Position numbers and translations under genes: made by a program. Below the pieces are notes generated by a model. That model saw only the letters and a list, made by a program, of their open reading frames with translations. It was not told the DNA's origin and did no database searches. 64,000 bases of DNA from Desulfovibrio sp. Huiquan2017 (GTDB lineage: Bacteria > Desulfobacterota > Desulfovibrionia > Desulfovibrionales > Desulfovibrionaceae): NCBI RefSeq assembly GCF_017351175.1, contig NZ_JAFMPN010000007.1:124001-188000 (forward strand). Reading direction: 5' to 3'. Positions 38,631 to 54,357 of this stretch are shown piece after piece. Each line of letters starts with the position of its first letter. The first letter of the stretch is position 1.

Positions 38631-38711
38631 GGATGACGCCCGTCAATAGGCACGAACGGCCCCCTTGACAGTCTTTGCGCTTCACTATATCAATATATAT
38701 AGATATAGTAA

Positions 38712-38842
38712 GACAAGAAACGGAAAGCGGTGAGAATCCGCTGCGGACACGCCACTGTAACCGATATTGCCCGGCCGAAGCCACTGCCCACGAGGCGGGA
38801 AGGCGAGGCCCGCACGGGCCGGGAGTCAGGAGACGTCTTGTC
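38712..38842 (+). promoter_or_regulatory. Cobalamin riboswitch (AdoCbl aptamer)
   Basis: The conserved blocks of the cobalamin riboswitch occur in order: GCGGTGAGAATCCGC, ACGCCACTGTAACCG, GAAGCCACTG (B12-box part), GGCGGGAAGGCG, and GAGTCAGGAGACGTC. A 7-bp P1 stem closes it: GACAAGA at 38712-38718 pairs with TCTTGTC at 38836-38842. It lies 220 bp upstream of a cobalamin-independent methionine synthase-like gene, so B12 should repress that gene. A GC-rich stretch between 38860 and 39061 probably holds the expression platform. Confidence 0.93.
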
Positions 38843-39061
38843 ACGACAGCCGACGCGAGGTCGGCGGAAGGGGCGGCTCCGTGTATGGGCGGTCCCCGAA
38901 AAAGTCGATGAAAACCATCCGTCAGCTTCCGCCCCCGACGCGCGGAAGCCCGTTCCCGTCTTGCGGCTTACCCTGATGCCGCCCCGGCATGCCGCCGTCC
39001 GCAAGGATCGGCACGCAATCGGGGTCCATGTCCGACAACTCAAGACAAAAAGGAAAAGACC

Positions 39062-40195
39062 ATGACCAAAACATTCGCATCCGCCACGACCCGCGATCTG
39101 CCCCCGTTCCGGGCGGACCACGTCGGCAGTTTCCTGCGCCCGGAATCCGTCAGGACCGCCCGTCTGCGCCTGCAGGCCGGGGAAATATCCGAAGACGACC
39201 TGCGCGCCGCGGAGGACGCGGCCATCCGGGACCTGGTGGAGAAACAAAAGGCCTGCGGCCTGCGGGCCGTCACGGACGGCGAATTCCGCCGCAGTTGGTG
39301 GCATCTGGACTTCTTCGCCGGGCTGGACGGCCTGCGGAAAAAGACGACCAGCACGGGGTTCGCCTTCCACGACGTCCACACCCGGGCGGAGAGCGTGGAG
39401 TTGGTGGATGAAATCCGGTTCGGCGCCCACCCCATGCTGGAACATTTCGCCTTCCTGCGGGATTGCGCCGGAACCCACACGGCCAAGATGACCATCCCCT
39501 CCCCGGCCATGCTTCACTTCGTGCTGGCCGTCCGGGACGAGCGGTTCGCCCGGCCCGCCTTTTACCCCACGGAGAACGCCTTCACCGAGGGCATCGTCCA
39601 GGCGTACCGCGACGCCGTGGCCGCCTTTTACAACGCGGGATGCCGCTACCTGCAATTGGACGATACCAGTTGGGGAGCCCTCTGCTCCGTCGAACAACGG
39701 GCGGCCATGCGAGAACGGGGCATAGACCCCGACGGGCTGGCCGAACGATATGTGGACATCCTCAACGCGGCCATAGCCGAACGCCCGGCCGACATGACGG
39801 TGACCATGCACATCTGCCGGGGCAACTACCGCTCCACTTGGTTTTCCAGCGGCGGATACGAGCCGGTGGCCCCGCAACTGTTCGCCAACGGGCGCCTGGA
39901 CGGCTTCTTCCTCGAATACGACACGGACCGCGCCGGGGACTTCGCCCCCCTGCGGCACATCCGCGACCAGCAAGTGGTTCTGGGGCTTGTTTCCTCCAAG
40001 ACCGGCGAGCTGGAAAAGGCTGAAGACGTGCTCGCGCGCATCGACGAGGCGGCGGCCGTCGTCCCCATCAACCAACTCTGCCTCAGCCCCCAATGCGGCT
40101 TTTCCTCCACCGAGGAAGGCAACACGCTGAGCGAGGAACAACAGTGGGCGAAAATCCGTTTTATCACGGAACTTGCCGCAACGGTCTGGAAATAG
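39062..40195 (+). CDS. Cobalamin-independent methionine synthase-like protein (YxjG/MetE C-terminal family)
   Basis: The 377-residue protein covers only the catalytic C-terminal half of MetE, as in the YxjG group. It has the FRADHVGSFLRP start, MTVTMHICRGN with the zinc-ligand histidine and cysteine, and NQLCLSPQCGFSS with the last zinc cysteine. It would transfer a methyl group to homocysteine; the donor (folate or other) cannot be told. The upstream cobalamin riboswitch implies that it replaces B12-dependent MetH when B12 is scarce. The start follows AAAAGGAAAAGACC. Confidence 0.88.
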   Translation: MTKTFASATTRDLPPFRADHVGSFLRPESVRTARLRLQAGEISEDDLRAAEDAAIRDLVEKQKACGLRAVTDGEFRRSWWHLDFFAGLDGLRKKTTSTGFAFHDVHTRAESVELVDEIRFGAHPMLEHFAFLRDCAGTHTAKMTIPSPAMLHFVLAVRDERFARPAFYPTENAFTEGIVQAYRDAVAAFYNAGCRYLQLDDTSWGALCSVEQRAAMRERGIDPDGLAERYVDILNAAIAERPADMTVTMHICRGNYRSTWFSSGGYEPVAPQLFANGRLDGFFLEYDTDRAGDFAPLRHIRDQQVVLGLVSSKTGELEKAEDVLARIDEAAAVVPINQLCLSPQCGFSSTEEGNTLSEEQQWAKIRFITELAATVWK

Positions 40196-40254: not shown

Positions 40255-41322
40255 CTACCGGCTCTCGGACACGCCCGCTGAAGCGAAGGTGGCCATCTGG
40301 TTGAAGACGTTGGCGGCGGCGCGGACCAGGAACATGGCACAGGCCGCGCCGGTGCCCTCGCCGAGGCGGAAGCCGAGGTGAAGGTAGGGAGTGACGCCCA
40401 TGGCGCGAGTGACGGCGGCATAACCGGGCTCGGCCGAGGCGTGACTGAGCAGGCAGTAGTCCTTGACCGCCGGGCGGATCTTCCAGGCCGCCAGGTAGGC
40501 GGCGGTGGAGATGAAGCCGTCCACGCAGACGAGCTGGTGATTTTTGGCCCCGCCCAGGACCAGTCCGGCCAAAGCGGCGATTTCGAGCCCGCCCAGGGCG
40601 GCGAGAATGTCCACGGGATCGCCGGAAGCGACGGCCGCCTTGTTGGCTTCAAGCCCGCGCCGGATGACGGCGGTCTTGGCCGGGAGATTCGCCGGGTCCA
40701 AGCCCGCGCCGGGACCGGTCAGGCTCGCCGGGTCCAAGCCGAGATAGGCCGCGTACAGGGCCGTGGACGGCGTGGTGTTGGAAATGCCCATGTCGCCGGT
40801 ACCGAGCACCTTGACGCCGTCCGCGTGGGCGCGGTCGGCCAGGGACACGCCGAGAAGCAGGGCTTCAAGGCACTGTTCGCGGGTCATGGCAGGGCCTTGG
40901 GCCAGATTGGCCGTGCCGGGCGCGACCTTGGCCTGGATCAGGGCCGGATGGTCGTCAAACGGGCCGCCGCAGCAACCCGCGTCCACCACGAAGAGTTCGG
41001 CTCCCACGGTCTTGGCCAGGACGTTGATGCCCGCGCCGTCGGCCAGAAAATTGAGGACCATCTGGCGGGTGACCTCCTGGGGGTAGGGCGACACGCCCTC
41101 GGCATTGACCCCATGATCCCCGGCCACGGTATAGACCCGCATGGGATCGGACTGGGGCGGCTGCCCGCCCTGGATGAGGTAGAGCTGCAAGGCCAGCTCC
41201 TCAAGTCGGCCAAGGCTGCCCACGGGTTTGGTCAGGTTGTCGATATGGGCCTGGCCCCCGGCTTCGGGGGTGCGGTCCACAGGGGTGATTTCATCGAGTA
41301 TCCGCTTGAATGCTGCTTCCAT
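40255..41322 (-). CDS. cobT: Nicotinate-nucleotide:dimethylbenzimidazole phosphoribosyltransferase
   Basis: The 355-residue enzyme activates dimethylbenzimidazole for the lower ligand of cobalamin. Diagnostic segments are DNLTKPVGSLGRLEELA at the N-terminus, VYTVAGDHGV, GDMGISNTTPSTALYAA, and DGFISTAAYLAAW. It lies convergent to the riboswitch-controlled methionine synthase-like gene. Another cobalamin gene, the CobD-CobQ fusion, is at 51682-54357. No riboswitch was seen in front of cobT. Confidence 0.95.
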   Translation of the reverse strand: MEAAFKRILDEITPVDRTPEAGGQAHIDNLTKPVGSLGRLEELALQLYLIQGGQPPQSDPMRVYTVAGDHGVNAEGVSPYPQEVTRQMVLNFLADGAGINVLAKTVGAELFVVDAGCCGGPFDDHPALIQAKVAPGTANLAQGPAMTREQCLEALLLGVSLADRAHADGVKVLGTGDMGISNTTPSTALYAAYLGLDPASLTGPGAGLDPANLPAKTAVIRRGLEANKAAVASGDPVDILAALGGLEIAALAGLVLGGAKNHQLVCVDGFISTAAYLAAWKIRPAVKDYCLLSHASAEPGYAAVTRAMGVTPYLHLGFRLGEGTGAACAMFLVRAAANVFNQMATFASAGVSESR

Positions 41323-45201: not shown

Positions 45202-45747
45202 CTACTCGCCCCGTACCAGGCAGACCCGATCCTCGCCGTCGCGCTCGGTCACCAGCACGTTGACGTGTTCATCGCCCAGGGTATCCACCTTTTTGCCCAC
45301 ATAGTCCGCCTGTATAGGAAACTCGCGGTGTCCCCGGTCCACCAAGACCAACAGCTCCACCCGCTTGGGGCGGCCGTAGTCGAGGATGGCCTCCAGCGCG
45401 GCCCGGATGGTCCGGCCGGAATAGAGCACATCGTCCACCAGCACCATGGAGGTGCCTTCCACCTCGAAGCCGATCTCCGAACAGTTGATGGTCGGGGCCA
45501 ACTCCAGATTGGTGGTCCAATCGTCGCGGTACAGGTTGATGTCCAGCTTGCCCAGGGGGATCTTGCGGCCCAGCCGCTCGTCCAGCAGCTTTTTCAGCCG
45601 TTCGGCCAGATCCGCGCCCCGGCGCTGGATGCCCAGGATGGCCAGGGACGCGTCGTCGCCCCGGCGCTCGTATATCTCGATGGCCAGCCGTTCCAGGGTC
45701 CGGCTCATCTCCTTTTCGGACAATATGGTACCGCAGTCTTTCATCAT
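45202..45747 (-). CDS. pyrR: Bifunctional pyrimidine regulator PyrR / uracil phosphoribosyltransferase
   Basis: The product has 181 residues when started at ATG 45747 (MMKDCGTILSEKEM), which has GTGAGGC upstream. It shows the PRPP-binding loop SMVLVDDVLYSGRTIRAAL and IQRRGADLAERL, both typical of PyrR. In some bacteria PyrR regulates pyr mRNA by attenuation; in others it only acts as a weak phosphoribosyltransferase. No pyr operon is next to it here, so its regulatory role is unproven. Confidence 0.9.
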   Translation of the reverse strand: MMKDCGTILSEKEMSRTLERLAIEIYERRGDDASLAILGIQRRGADLAERLKKLLDERLGRKIPLGKLDINLYRDDWTTNLELAPTINCSEIGFEVEGTSMVLVDDVLYSGRTIRAALEAILDYGRPKRVELLVLVDRGHREFPIQADYVGKKVDTLGDEHVNVLVTERDGEDRVCLVRGE

Positions 45748-45843
45748 CTCGGCCTCACAGGGCTTGGCGGTTGAAGGAACGTAGAAAACTAGCCCATCCC
45801 CCATGTACGGTCAACTCCGCCGCCGACCATGGACAGTTTCGAT

Positions 45844-45872: not shown

Positions 45873-45905
45873 TTCATTCCCCGACCCAAATTAGGAGGCA
45901 TTATA

Positions 45906-46247
45906 ATGATTGAAGTCACCGATGCTGCCCGGAAGCAGCTCGAAGGCTACTTCCAGGAAAAGGAAGCGACCCCCATCCGCGTGTACCTCGCGGCGGGCGG
46001 CTGAGCGGGCCCGCGCCTGACTTTGGCTCTGGATGAGCCTAACGACAAGGACGAGGTGTCCGAGGCCGGTGGATTCACCTTCCTCGTGGAAAAGGACCTG
46101 CTGGCTCAGACCGGCGATATCAAAATCGACATGACCTACTACGGATTCGTCGTGGAGTCCCAGAACCCGGTCAGCGGCGGCGACAGCTGCTCCTGCTCCT
46201 CATCGAGTTCCTGCTCCTCCGCCGGTTCCGGCGGCTGCGGCTGCTAG
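45906..46247 (+). CDS. HesB/IscA-like selenoprotein (in-frame TGA = selenocysteine)
   Basis: ATG 45906, after a strong TTAGGAGGC site, opens a frame that runs 32 codons to a TGA at 46002-46004 and continues in frame to the TAG at 46245-46247 (113 residues). The continuation aligns with the paralogue at 46604: LAAGG-U-SGPRLTLALDE versus LADGG-C-SGPRLSLALDE. The TGA therefore replaces C33, the first Fe-S/metal ligand of IscA-type proteins. A hairpin with a GG-containing loop lies 20-35 nt downstream (46022-46042). The C-terminus is Cys/Ser-rich, ending GGCGC. HesB-like selenoproteins are an established bacterial selenoprotein family. Conventional calling would report only the part after the TGA. 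Confidence 0.88.
46022..46042 (+). promoter_or_regulatory. Candidate bacterial SECIS element
   Basis: GGCTC (46025-46029), loop TGGAT, GAGCC (46035-46039), with two more outer T-A pairs after a mismatch. The GG in the apical loop lies about 26 nt after the TGA at 46002, within the range known for SelB-bound SECIS hairpins. It is inside the coding sequence, as required in bacteria. A longer GCGGGCCCGC pairing directly after the TGA could compete. Confidence 0.55.
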
Positions 46248-46333: not shown

Positions 46334-46387
46334 AAAAAGCCCGGACCATCGCGTATGTTCAATACGCTTCGGTCCCGGGCTTTTTTT
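46334..46387 (+). terminator. Terminator of the selenoprotein gene
   Basis: AAAAAGCCCGGACC ... GGTCCCGGGCTTTTTTT with an inner GCGTAT-N5-ATACGC stem. It is almost identical to the terminator of the second hesB-like gene (46955-47007), which shows that gene and terminator were duplicated together. The rest of the gap to the next gene is AT-rich promoter DNA without a gene. Confidence 0.92.
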
Positions 46388-46603
46388 CGCGTCTTGCGGG
46401 GAAGCTTCCCGCCGTTCGGCCCGCCTCCGTCCGGAAGCCGGGTGGTCGTCGCACGGGTCGTCGGAACAAAATTTCGGATTTTTTTGGGCGGGATTTCGGC
46501 AGGTTGAGGTGGTTTCCAAAGATCTTGCATCGTTTTTCTCTTTACATCGAATAGAGTATCCTTATTGTCTTGGGTAACGAAACCCACCCCAGGAGAAAAC
46601 GAC

Positions 46604-46924
46604 ATGATTACAGTTACCGAATCGGCTCTGAACGAACTGACCAAATATTTCGAGGATAAGGATGTGCAGCCCATCCGGGTGCATCTGGCCGACGGCGGTT
46701 GCTCCGGCCCGCGCCTGTCCCTGGCCCTGGACGAGTTGCGTGAAGGCGACAAGTCCGTGGAGCAGGGAGACTTCACCTTCCTGATCAACGAAGAACTGGT
46801 CCAGGCTTCGGGCGCCGTGTCCATCGACATGACCCCCTACGGCTTCCAGGTCTCCTCCGAAAACCAGATCGGCGGCGGGGGTTGCGGATGCTCCTCCTGC
46901 GGCACCGGCTCCTGCGGCTGCTAG
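46604..46924 (+). CDS. HesB/IscA-like protein (cysteine form)
   Basis: The 106-residue protein is the cysteine-containing paralogue of the selenoprotein just upstream. C33 in ADGGCSGPRLSLALDE and the C-terminal cysteines (GGGGCGCSSCGTGSCGC) give the three-ligand pattern of IscA/HesB Fe-S carriers, with an unusually cysteine-rich tail. It starts at ATG 46604 after AGGAGAAAACGAC. It probably handles Fe-S clusters or metal in the cytoplasm. It is monocistronic with its own terminator. Confidence 0.9.
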   Translation: MITVTESALNELTKYFEDKDVQPIRVHLADGGCSGPRLSLALDELREGDKSVEQGDFTFLINEELVQASGAVSIDMTPYGFQVSSENQIGGGGCGCSSCGTGSCGC

Positions 46925-46954: not shown

Positions 46955-47007
46955 AAAAAGCCCGGACCCTCGCGTATTGCAATACGCTTCGGTCCCGGGC
47001 TTTTTTT
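46955..47007 (+). terminator. Terminator of the second HesB-like gene
   Basis: AAAAAGCCCGGACC-CTC-GCGTATTGCAATACGC-TTC-GGTCCCGGGCTTTTTTT. It is a twin of the terminator at 46334-46387. The next 330 bp to 47341 hold no credible gene. Confidence 0.92.
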
Positions 47008-47411: not shown

Positions 47412-48650
47412 TTAATCGAAAGTTCTTTCATTGACGAGACGGGGGGCATCCTCCGGCAGCGTGCCGGGAACGCAGGTCTCGACGACAGGTCGCAATTTCA
47501 TCGAGGCCTGGAAGTCGGCCTCAAAGCTTTCCGTATCGAAAGGTTGCGCCGTTTCGGCCACAACCACAATTACGTCGTTGTCATTAACACGTTTGACCTG
47601 AATCTGCCAGCCGGAAATGGCCGGGAATCGAGAAAAAACCACAGCGGCCTGACCAGGGTAGACGAACTGGCCCTTGACCTTGGCCGTATCGTCGGCCCGG
47701 CCTTTCCATCCGGCAAGTTTTCTGGCCGTGCGCCCACACGCGCATGGCCCCAGGTCCATGGACGACAGGTCGCCCGTGGCCAGGCGGACCAGCGGATAAT
47801 CGGTGAAAAACGGGGTGACGACCACCTCGCCCACCTCGCCGTCGGGCACGGGCAGGCCGGTGTCCGGGTCGCATATCTCCACGTGCCGGTAGTTGGACAG
47901 GTGCATGCCGCCGAGTTCCCGGCACTCGTAGGCGATGCAGCCCACATCCGCCGTGCCGTATCCTTGGCGGACGGTGATGCCGAACATCGCCTCCAACTCG
48001 GCGCGCAGGCTTTCCGACAGCGGCTCGGCCGCCACATAGGCCTTCTCCAGATGGAAATCCTCCAGCGGATCGAGCCCGGTGGCCACGGCCCTTTCGCCGA
48101 TGATCTTCAGGTAGCTGGCCATGCCGATGAAGGCGTTGACCGGCAATCGGGTCAGCAGCTCGATCTGCTCGCCGGTGTTGCCCGGACCGGCCGGGACGAC
48201 CGCGCAGCCAATGTCCCGCAACGGCTCCTCGAACATATGTCCGGCCGGGGTCATATGGTAGGAAAAGGTCATCTGCGCAAGGTCTCCGGGCCGGAAGCCC
48301 GCCGCGAAAAAGCCCTCGGACCAGGCCCAGTAGTCCGGTTCGCGGCCCTCGGGATCATAGATCGGGCCGGGCGACTGATAGATGCGCGAAAGCTCCCCGG
48401 GCCGGACGGCCAAAAACCAACCTATGCCATGCTCCCGCTGCCATTTGACGACATCCTTCTTGCGCAGAGGCGGGATCTTGGCGTAGTCGTCCCAGTCCTT
48501 GAAATCCTTGGCGCACGCCCCCAGGCTCCGCAGCCGGGCCTGGAACTCGCCCGAAGACCGCTCCGCCGCCATGAGCACGTCCTTCACGCCTTTCCACTTG
48601 CGCTTCATCCGCTTCTCGCGCGGCTCCGTTTCATATTCGGTATAGTACAT
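47412..48650 (-). CDS. Phenylacetate-CoA ligase-like (PaaK) adenylate-forming protein
   Basis: The 412-residue protein has the PaaK-type start (RLRSLGACAKDFKDWDDYAKIPPLRKKDVV), the adenylation core (FSYHMTPAGHMFEEPLRDIGCAVVPAGPGNTGEQIELL; RQGYGTADVG; GEVVVTPFFTDYPLVRLATGD) and the C-terminal GRADDTAKVKGQFVYPGQ. It would activate an aryl or related carboxylate with ATP and CoA. ATG 48650 is chosen for the family-like N-terminus; the frame stays open upstream but codes for non-family residues. No aromatic degradation genes are adjacent. Confidence 0.86.
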   Translation of the reverse strand: MYYTEYETEPREKRMKRKWKGVKDVLMAAERSSGEFQARLRSLGACAKDFKDWDDYAKIPPLRKKDVVKWQREHGIGWFLAVRPGELSRIYQSPGPIYDPEGREPDYWAWSEGFFAAGFRPGDLAQMTFSYHMTPAGHMFEEPLRDIGCAVVPAGPGNTGEQIELLTRLPVNAFIGMASYLKIIGERAVATGLDPLEDFHLEKAYVAAEPLSESLRAELEAMFGITVRQGYGTADVGCIAYECRELGGMHLSNYRHVEICDPDTGLPVPDGEVGEVVVTPFFTDYPLVRLATGDLSSMDLGPCACGRTARKLAGWKGRADDTAKVKGQFVYPGQAAVVFSRFPAISGWQIQVKRVNDNDVIVVVAETAQPFDTESFEADFQASMKLRPVVETCVPGTLPEDAPRLVNERTFD

Positions 48651-48861
48651 GGATGCGCCCCCGAATCCCGTTGGAAAATTGTCGTCGCGCCGTCGCGTAC
48701 GGAACGGTCCGCCCGGCTCTGTTCTTGTCACGCTACGACAGATGCGCTGTTTTTTCCACCACTCTCCGCGTCCCGCTTTCCACAGGAAATTCCGGCGAGC
48801 CGTCCATGCGAGGGGAGCGTTTCCAGAACCGGTCCGGGGCGCGCGGGGTTCCCGCGCCACG

Positions 48862-48896
48862 AAAAAAGGCGCGGCCTCAAGCGAAGCAACGCCTTT
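48862..48896 (-). terminator. Terminator of the CBS-ACT gene
   Basis: Read leftward: AAAGGCG, an 18-nt loop, CGCCTTTTTT. It lies in the 365-bp gap (48651-49015) that otherwise contains no gene I can support. Confidence 0.65.
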
Positions 48897-49015
48897 GTAG
48901 ACAAGGGGGGCAAGCTGGCCCCGTTCTATCACGGCCAGGAAACCCGAGGTTCCCGCCGGCCTTCGTGCGGTCCGCCGGTAAAAGCCGAAACGCGCCCGGA
49001 CCAGGCCGATCGGAC

Positions 49016-49672
49016 CTAGGTCCACTCCTCCTCGAAATCCACGGCAGTGACCACCTTATAGCCCCGGTCCTCAAGCGCGGCGGCGACCAGGGACGGGTCC
49101 TCGGCGTCCATACGGACGACCACGACACGGCGCCCGTTGTAAAAGAAGGTGCCGGTGGAAATGATGGAAATCTTCATGTTGGCGATGACCCCGGCGACCT
49201 CGTAAAGCACGCCGGAACGGTCCTCGACCTCAAGGGTCAGGCGGCTGCCGCCCTCACGGTAGCCCATCTGCTCGGCCAGGACGTCGAGCATGACGTTGCG
49301 GTTGATGTAGCCGATGAGTTCACCGTCGGCATCGACCACGGCCAGCCCGGCAAGGTTCATCTCGTACATCATGTCGGCCGCGCCCTCGATCTCCGTCTCC
49401 GGGGCCACGGTCTTGATGTCCGTACGGTAGATCTTCTCCACCGTGAGCTTGCTCATCAGGTAGGTGATCTCATGTTTCTCAAGGGAAGTCATGATGCTGG
49501 GCAGGGCCGCTGAAACATCTTCCTTGCGCACGTAGCCGACCAGCTTGCCTTCGTCGTCCACCACCAGGAGCATCCAGAGCTTGTTGTCCTCAAGCTGTTT
49601 CTGGGCGTCCTTGACCAGCGTCTGGGGGGTGACCTTGACGAAGTCGCGAAGCATTTTCAGTCCGACGTACAT
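49016..49672 (-). CDS. CBS-pair protein with C-terminal ACT domain
   Basis: The 218-residue cytoplasmic protein has two CBS motifs (about 12-65, VTPQTLVKDAQKQLEDNKLWMLLVVDDEGKLVGYV; and about 80-135, VAPETEIEGAADMMYEMNLAGLAVVDADGELIGYINR) that form one adenosine-nucleotide-binding unit. An ACT-like domain follows (about 145-218, LTLEVEDRSGVLYEVAGVIANMKISIIS). Such proteins sense adenine nucleotides and a small ligand. ATG 49672 has AAGGAGG upstream. The gene is single. The 322 bp upstream (49673-49994) hold no gene I can support. Confidence 0.88.
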   Translation of the reverse strand: MYVGLKMLRDFVKVTPQTLVKDAQKQLEDNKLWMLLVVDDEGKLVGYVRKEDVSAALPSIMTSLEKHEITYLMSKLTVEKIYRTDIKTVAPETEIEGAADMMYEMNLAGLAVVDADGELIGYINRNVMLDVLAEQMGYREGGSRLTLEVEDRSGVLYEVAGVIANMKISIISTGTFFYNGRRVVVVRMDAEDPSLVAAALEDRGYKVVTAVDFEEEWT

Positions 49673-51681: not shown

Positions 51682-54357
51682 TCACCTTCCCGGACGGCGG
51701 AAAAGCGGGGCCTGGGCACATCCGCCCGACAGGCCGAGCGCCCGGTAGACCGCGTCCATGTCCACGGCCTCGCGCACCACGGAAGCCAGGTTGTCCAGGG
51801 CGTCCTCCAGGCCGAAGACGGTCTGGATCGCCTCCAGGGGCGAGAGCCCCTTGTCCATGCGCAACTGGTCGATGAACCAGCGGCGGAACCCGTCGGCGTC
51901 GAACAATCCATGCAGATAGGTGCCGAGCACCCGCCCGTCCGGACGCATGTATCCCAACGGCTCGCCCGCGTTGTCGCGCAGGGCCACGCGCAGATCGTCG
52001 GACAGCGGCTCGGTGCGGCCGTGGTGGATCTCGTAGCCGTGCACGGTCAGGCCCGAGGCCGAATGGGTACCGAAAGTCCGGGTCAGGGTCTTTTCGGGGC
52101 TCAGGGTGGTCTGCACCGGCAAGAGGTCGAAACCCTCCACGCGGGTGGTCTCGGACTCCAGGCCATAGGGGTCGTCCACTATGCGGCCGAGCATCTGGAA
52201 TCCACCGCAGATGCCGACGATGCGCGTGCGGCCCTCGGCCAGTTCGCGCAGGACGGCGGCCATGCCCGTGCCCTTGAGGGCGCGCATGTCCGGCACCGTG
52301 GACTTGGAGCCGGGAATGATCACCGCGTCGGGCGTTCCCACGTCGCGGGCGTCGGCCACCACGCGCACGCGCACGTCCGGCTCGGCGTAAAGCGGGTCGA
52401 TGTCGTTGAAATTCGAAATACGCGGCAGGTCCAGAACCACGATGTCCACGCACCGATCCTCGGGAAGCTTGTCGCCCTCGGGCCGGAACCCGTCCTTGAA
52501 CGAGACCGAATCCTCTTCGGGCAGGCCAAGGGCGTGGATATACGGCACCGTGCCGAGCACCGGCTTGCCCGTGCGCTCGAACATCTGGCCGAAGGCCGGG
52601 TCCAGCAGCGAGGCGTCGCCCCGGAAACGATTGATGACGTAGCCCTCCACCCGGCTGCGCTCTCCGGCCGTAAGCAAGCTCATGGTCCCGACGATGGAGG
52701 CGAAGACTCCGCCCCGGTCTATGTCCCCGGTGAGCAGGACGCGCGCCCCCGCGTACTCGGCCATGGTCATGTTGACGATGTCGTGGTGCTTGAGATTGAC
52801 CTCGGCCGGGCTGCCCGCCCCTTCCAGGACCAGGACGTCGTGCTCGTTGGCCAGGGAGTCGTAGGCCGCCTTGACCGCTTCCCAGGCGCGCGGCTTGTAC
52901 TCCACATACTCGCGCACGCTCATGTTGCCCACGGGACGCCCCATGACGATGACCTGCGAGCCGATGTCCGAGCCGGGCTTGAGCAGCACCGGGTTCATGC
53001 GCACATCCGGGTTCAGGCGGCAGGCCATGGCCTGGGTCACCTGGGCGCGGCCCATCTCGCCGCCCTGGTCGGTGACGTAGGAGTTGAGCGACATGTTCTG
53101 GGCCTTGAACGGGGCCACGTCGAAACCGTCCTGCAACAGGATACGGCAGAAGGCGGCCGCCAGCACGGATTTACCCGCGTTGGAGCTGGTCCCCTGGATC
53201 ATCAGGGCCGGAGTCCGACGGGTGCGCTTGACCACCGGACCGCGCGCCGTGCCCGCCACCCCCTCCATGGCCCGGATGAGCGTCTCGTTGTCCGCGCGGC
53301 CGCGCACGGCCACCCGGAACCACTTGTCGTCCAGGCCGGTGTAGTTGCCGCACAGCCGAATGCCGATGCGATACTCGCGGAGCAGACGGTCCCGCAGCAT
53401 GGCGGCATCCTGACCCACGCGATCCACGCGGCAGAAGAGATAGTTGGCCGCGCCCGGCAGGACCCTGAGGCCCGGCACCTGCCGGAGCCCCGAAGCCAGG
53501 GATTCGCGCAGCAACCTGGTTTGCTCACGGGTTTCGGCCAGGTAGGCCGCGTCCTTCAGGCAGCGTTCGCCGACCTTCTGGGCCAGGGTATTCACGGACC
53601 AAGCGGGCATATTGCGGTGAATGCGCAGGATCACGTCCGGGTCGGCGAAGGCCAGCCCCAGCCGCAGGCCGGGAATGGCGTAGGTCTTGGTCAGGGAGAG
53701 GACGCAGATGACGTTGGACGGCCGGTCGCGGGTCAACCGGTCCGCCCCCTCGGGCAAAAATTCCGCAAAGGACTCGTCCACCACGAAGGTGGACCGGGGA
53801 AACATGGCCGCCACCTCGCGCAGGTCGTTGGCCGAGACCACGGTGCCGGTGGGGTTGTTGGGGCTGCACAGGAAGACCAGGGAGGGCGTGGCCAGGAGTG
53901 TACCCATGGCCGGGAAGTTCACGGTAAAGTCGTCGGCGAGCGGCGGTTCCACCACGGGCAAACGATGGACCCGGCACGCCCGGGCATAATCCACATATGT
54001 GGGCGAAGGGATGATGGCCTGGCGAAATCCCTTGAGGGCGGCGATGGCGAAAAGCAATTCGGACGCGCCGTTGCCCGCCGTCACCTGCGTGGGCCAAACC
54101 TTGTAGCGCTCGGCCGCGGCCATGAGCAGCCGGGTGCAGTCCGGATCCGGATAGGCGTCCACCTCCTGGAGGGCCTGGCCGACCACCTGCCCGAGCCACG
54201 TCGGCGGCCCGAGGGGATTCACGTTGGCCGAAAAATCGAGGATATCCTCCGGCGCGCACCCTGCCGTCTCGGCCATGCGCCGCCGGTTCCCCCCGTGGGC
54301 GAACCGCCGTTCATCCAACACCTCGGGTATCCCAGCGAAAAGATTCTGCTTATCCAT
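51682..54357 (-). CDS. CobD-CobQ fusion: threonine-phosphate decarboxylase-like + cobyric acid synthase
   Basis: The 891-residue protein fuses two cobalamin enzymes. Residues 1 to about 365 are a PLP-dependent CobD/CobC-type enzyme ([34 protein letters not shown], and lysine in [14 protein letters not shown]). Residues about 375-891 are CobQ: an N-terminal P-loop-like ATPase ([25 protein letters not shown]) and a class I glutamine amidotransferase with the nucleophile in [10 protein letters not shown] and a histidine in LGTYLHGLF. It would amidate cobyrinate and supply aminopropanol phosphate. It follows the convergent diguanylate cyclase gene by 13 bp. Confidence 0.93.

Follow-up and report, generated by a model that had tools for sequence, protein, structure and literature searches.

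Does the TGA that stands at codon 33 of a hesB-like frame end a gene, or is it read as selenocysteine (Sec)? The question is raised by a locus of Desulfovibrio sp. Huiquan2017, found in a stretch of 64,000 nucleotides, called the window here. The genome of the window comprises 3.97 Mb in 48 contigs, and its same-genus relatives are named Pseudodesulfovibrio. A preliminary description of this DNA had proposed a HesB/IscA-like selenoprotein with Sec in place of the first ligand Cys.

A hesB-like frame with an in-frame TGA

The frame starting at ATG 45906 translates as MIEVTDAARKQLEGYFQEKEATPIRVYLAAGG-U-AGPRLTLALDEPNDKDEVSEAGGFTFLVEKDLLAQTGDIKIDMTYYGFVVESQNPVSGGDSCSCSSSSSCSSAGSGGCGC, where U stands for the TGA at 46002-46004, and, as had been described, it stays open beyond this codon to the TAG at 46245-46247 (Table 1). 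When the TGA is taken as Sec, a 113-amino acid protein of the IscA fold is predicted. Without recoding, the longest downstream ORF reported by a mechanical ORF caller begins at TTG 46023, hence the first 39 codons are missing, which is the loss foreseen for standard annotation. The downstream paralogue has Cys at the aligned codon 33, again in line with the preliminary description (GGC-SGPRL versus GGU-AGPRL), and the two proteins are 54% identical. We propose that the UGA at codon 33 is decoded as Sec and that the product belongs to the HesB-like selenoproteins (of the NF038090 or UxGP kind), a joint reading to which we assign a probability of about 0.94.

Table 1 Features of the Sec/Cys gene pair (window coordinates).
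Feature	Position	Strand	Details and basis
Shine-Dalgarno AGGAGG of the Sec gene	45893..45898	+	sequence; 7 nt 5' of the ATG
Putative hesB-like selenoprotein gene	45906..46247	+	113 codons, Sec = codon 33, then TAG; NF038090 115.8 bits, cut-off 85
In-frame TGA taken as selenocysteine, GGU-AGPRL	46002..46004	+	sequence and recurrence in relatives
SECIS-like upper stem-loop GGCUC-UGGAU-GAGCC	46025..46039	+	comparative conservation
Intrinsic-terminator-like palindrome and T-run after the Sec gene	46334..46387	+	sequence; near-identical to that of the Cys gene
Shine-Dalgarno AGGAG of the Cys gene	46591..46595	+	sequence
Cys paralogue, GGC-SGPRL	46604..46924	+	106 codons; NF038090 108.7 bits, cut-off 85
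Intrinsic-terminator-like palindrome and T-run after the Cys gene	46955..47007	+	sequence

Family membership and predicted fold

Both window genes score above the curated cut-off of the NCBIfam model NF038090 (IscA_HesB_Se) over the whole length of the model (115.8 and 108.7 versus 85 bits), and Pfam PF01521 (Fe-S_biosyn) matches too. NF038090 covers Sec and Cys forms alike and does not extend to their tandem arrangement; a literature search for this accession found no paper. The UxGP motif is present as GGUAGPRL, with the TGA at the position of the first conserved Cys, and is conserved among the Sec copies collected. This motif, which has been tabulated (PMC13188914), is shared with the proteins described by TIGR01911 (HesB-like selenoprotein, UxGP), and the HesB-like protein of Methanococcus maripaludis likewise contains Sec (PMC11097638); however, the window protein stays below the cut-off of TIGR01911 (39.7 versus 66.35 bits), and archaea have SECIS elements of a different type. 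IscA, SufA and ErpA resemble the window protein in fold and in the first ligand position, but the latter has Sec for Cys and a variable Cys-rich tail, and it reaches none of the IscA/SufA/ErpA equivalog models (23-28 bits versus cut-offs of 117-151).

HesB-like selenoproteins have been listed for D. vulgaris and D. desulfuricans (PMC1794560), and DVU_1382 of D. vulgaris was named as a HesB protein containing TGA (PMC1914089). These proteins of closely related sulfate reducers are HesB/IscA-like and have an in-frame TGA, and no difference from the window protein was found in a comparison that did not include an alignment with DVU_1382. The gene is a further member of a known selenoprotein family. 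The precedent to which the preliminary description appealed had been published in 2006-2007 (PMC1794560, PMC1914089), with Desulfovibrio members of the UxGP type included, and the surprise it attached to the gene was overrated.

An AlphaFold2 model, obtained with 20 sequences from the window and from relatives, is confident in the core (residues 1-91) but not in the Cys-rich tail (pLDDT <50 from residue 92). The tail contains CxC motifs (CSC, CGC), which fall in this low-confidence part, and the low pLDDT means that the ligand set cannot be placed. The tails of the Sec copies have 3-5 Cys and vary in length and in Cys spacing. The best PDB matches of the model in a Foldseek search (E 9e-7 to 2e-4) are an IscA with a [2Fe-2S] cluster (PDB code: 1x0g), the E. 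coli IscA (PDB code: 1s98) and SufA (PDB code: 2d2a). According to the predicted fold and the alignment, Sec33 sits where A-type Fe-S carriers would have their first ligand Cys. A whole-genome search with PF01521 returned zero matches, the known pair included; being blind even to this pair, the search says nothing on the absence of canonical carriers and gives no ground for claiming it. A genome search with TIGR00049 returned the Cys copy alone, below the cut-off.

Selenocysteine machinery and distribution of the TGA

The search for the Sec machinery that the preliminary description had called for (selA, selB, selC and selD) was carried out in the genome of the window, where selA (615 bits), selB (386 bits), selD and, for selC, one tRNA-Sec with the anticodon TCA were all found. 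The selD gene has an in-frame TGA of its own, and two stretches of formate dehydrogenase alpha genes also contain an in-frame TGA, therefore this genome has other genes with a recoded TGA that belong to known selenoprotein families.

The TGA copy was found in 36/36 genomes of the genus Pseudodesulfovibrio, and in most of them a Cys copy lies no more than a few kb away. At the level of the family, 221 of the 247 genomes have a protein over the cut-off and 199 have a selA over the cut-off. Twenty family genomes are at least 90% complete and lack selA; copies over the cut-off are extant in 13 of them, all without a TGA, and G124 and G174 are the only two of the 20 with the TGA form; these assemblies are split into 820 and 220 contigs, respectively, and their congeners have selA. 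This distribution of the TGA form and of selA implies that the TGA and the Sec machinery go together. In the phylum, 131 of the 296 genomes have a protein over the cut-off, with one TGA in most of the matches listed. In a match with two TGAs (G432), the second TGA was dismissed as an ordinary stop. When the window is compared with its closest relatives, most codon changes downstream of the TGA leave the amino acid unchanged (e.g. 8 silent, 2 replacing).

A conserved SECIS-like stem-loop after the TGA

Bacterial SECIS elements are constrained to an apical loop of 3-9 nt, a G in the first two loop positions, a stem of 4-16 bp and a UGA-loop distance of 16-37 nt (PMC13188914). The hairpin with a GG-bearing loop that had been noticed after the TGA consists of GGCUC (46025-46029), the loop UGGAU (46030-46034) and GAGCC (46035-46039), and meets these constraints with a G in the second loop position, 5 bp and a loop 25 nt past the UGA. 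Single-sequence folding of the region after the TGA gave an energy that is not exceptional (z -0.60); since this value is not significant, the SECIS argument rests on comparison. All five stem pairs are formed in 62/62 Sec copies of the family and in 90/90 distinct Sec copies overall, versus 2/60 Cys copies, the Sec-copy counts being drawn from related genomes and not standing for independent events. Owing to this kinship, the Cys copies of the same genomes are the better control.

The Ala codon of the stem is GCT in 62/62 family Sec copies versus 93/469 at other Ala codons of the same genes, and the Glu codon is GAG in 62/62 versus 142/465 at other Glu codons. Compensatory changes were detected in L073 (TTA...CTA, an A-U pair for G-C) and in L146 and L148 (GTT...GAA, a U-A pair for C-G). 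Judging from the fixed silent codons and the compensatory changes, the stem is upheld by selection. A lower SECIS stem shows no conservation, and Rfam gave no SECIS family at the hairpin site, even at a permissive threshold. From the conservation of the stem-loop and the presence of the machinery we infer that Sec would be inserted at UGA codon 33 via SelB and the stem-loop at 46025-46039.

Two Cys copies, L106 (from G230, a genome without selA) and L020 (from G010), retain the full SECIS upper stem, which is likely the remnant of a former Sec gene.

Two readings in which the TGA does not encode Sec have to be weighed against these data. The TGA is one base away from TGC and TGT and a Cys paralogue adjoins, which could speak for a sequencing error, or for a recent nonsense mutation in a pseudogene. 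The same codon is TGA, however, in 36/36 genomes of the genus and in many families of the phylum, the changes after it are mostly silent, and the stem codons are invariant. The recurrence in 36 independent genomes of the genus means that neither chance nor a read error is at work; it rules out sequencing error and pseudogene (we see practically no chance for either), and with them the read error that the preliminary description had named as a threat to its interpretation. The unexceptional folding energy is in keeping with a TGA that is a true stop, or that an ordinary tRNA decodes leakily, with some other role for the hairpin; this reading is very improbable, given the complete Sec machinery and the other TGA-bearing selenoprotein genes of the genome, the lack of TGA forms in near-complete selA-less genomes (the two fragmented assemblies aside), and a hairpin that fits the published bacterial constraints (PMC13188914). 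Decoding of the UGA as Sec in a HesB/IscA-like protein, as originally proposed, agrees with (i) the NF038090 score; (ii) the presence of the machinery; (iii) the conservation of the SECIS-like hairpin; and (iv) the recurrence of the TGA in the genus.

Possible role of the product

Both the fold and the location of Sec suggest an A-type-like protein that carries an Fe-S cluster or a different soft metal and whose Cys tail would close the site. In the predicted IscA-fold product, Sec33, placed at the first ligand Cys position, would bind the metal, and the remaining ligands would come from the flexible Cys-rich tail. The most likely role, at roughly even odds, seems to be to bind an Fe-S cluster or some other soft metal transiently and to pass it on. 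The gene context at the locus contains nothing that points to a client. The selenoprotein may instead be devoted to thiol/selenol redox chemistry or to the binding of a soft metal such as mercury or arsenic, and not to Fe-S cluster carriage, an alternative that we hold to be a substantial possibility, if short of an even chance. The variable length and Cys spacing of the tail (3-5 Cys in the Sec copies) and the scores below every Fe-S carrier equivalog cut-off favour it, and a review holds most uncharacterised selenoproteins to have redox functions (PMC13188914), while the conserved IscA/SufA fold and the first-ligand position argue against it. Mutagenesis and 75Se labelling showed the HesB-like protein of M. 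maripaludis to be a selenoprotein; a mutant in this protein showed normal nitrogen fixation (unpublished observation cited in PMC11097638), which counts against the Fe-S carrier explanation.

The Cys paralogue and the shared locus

The pair is flanked by opposite-strand genes (45202-45804 and 47412-49025), and the Sec and Cys genes each stand alone. The terminator-like palindromes of the two genes have 28 identical nucleotides and a further 23 nt at 96% identity; the 28-nt part has no other occurrence within the window. This 3' likeness of Sec and Cys genes is present in some congeners and absent in others. Comparison of the upstream regions of the two genes revealed no detectable similarity, consequently no common regulatory site can be proposed, and the separateness of these regions suggests that the two genes are under separate control. 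The Cys paralogue, which has an upstream region and a terminator to itself, might step in under Sec shortage or serve another client, a proposal that we regard as tentative.

The pair may serve as a test system, as the Sec and Cys forms of one A-type-like protein are neighbours in this genome and in dozens of related ones. It would permit a direct test of the effect of a selenol at an Fe-S ligand position, as well as of the idea that Cys twins are backups for selenium shortage.

Origin of the Sec/Cys pair

In a weakly resolved tree of 150 proteins (101 columns), Sec and Cys copies are intermixed by lineage, with 14 Sec/Cys label changes, at least 12 of which are forced by starred branches. When the Sec/Cys column was masked and near-copies were thinned to 74 family rows, 8 label changes were needed, 7 of them forced by well-supported branches. 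A single clade of all Cys copies was rejected (p-AU 3e-9), this group having been named after the first tree was seen. By these analyses, the Sec copies and the Cys copies are not two separate clades. The gene order is Cys-Sec in three genera (codes g9, g10 and g41) and Sec-Cys elsewhere, and the Sec form predominates in related families. As the tree is unrooted, the direction of the Sec/Cys change is not given by the tree itself. The mixed clades, together with the varying gene order, suggest that Cys twins appeared repeatedly next to a retained Sec gene; a Sec ancestor with repeated tandem births of Cys copies would be the simplest reading. We lean, by a little, towards the view that in the Desulfovibrionaceae a Sec gene that was retained has repeatedly given rise to Cys paralogues, which stayed in tandem with it.

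The near-identical terminators and the unrelated upstream regions of the window pair look like local homogenisation or lineage-specific 3' copying. These features speak for a single ancient Sec/Cys duplication followed by gene conversion that homogenised the two copies within each lineage. We consider such a history a serious rival, though less likely than not. The gene order varies, Cys coming first in three genera and Sec elsewhere, which argues against one ancient duplication, as does the rejection of a single Cys clade, a result that conversion would equally give. The preliminary description spoke of a ligand thiol replaced by a selenol, a change that it deemed unusual. The position does differ between the two copies in this way, but the direction is probably wrong for this lineage: related families widely have Sec, and it is the Cys copies that seem to be derived. 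The less familiar part of the system is its evolution, with its hints of Cys twins arising repeatedly.

Other observations in the genus and in the window

In another genome of the same genus (G223), an ErpA-related protein is encoded at L163:985-1278 (NF033940, 142.5 bits versus a cut-off of 65); its frame contains a TGA at L163:1096, followed by a hairpin with the loop GGUCU that is inside the SECIS range. Its counterpart in the genome of the window, on contig 13 (L160:987-1280), has Cys at this position (GCGC-HSK versus GGGU-HAK in L163). Found in one genome only, the L163 protein may represent a second A-type family in its Sec form.

Within the window, a cobalamin riboswitch (Rfam RF00174, 71 bits) lies at 38694-38854, just 5' of a gene (39062-40195) whose translation resembles a methionine synthase-type protein, and apparent cobalamin biosynthesis genes, likewise judged from their translations, are situated at 40255-41322 and 51682-54357.
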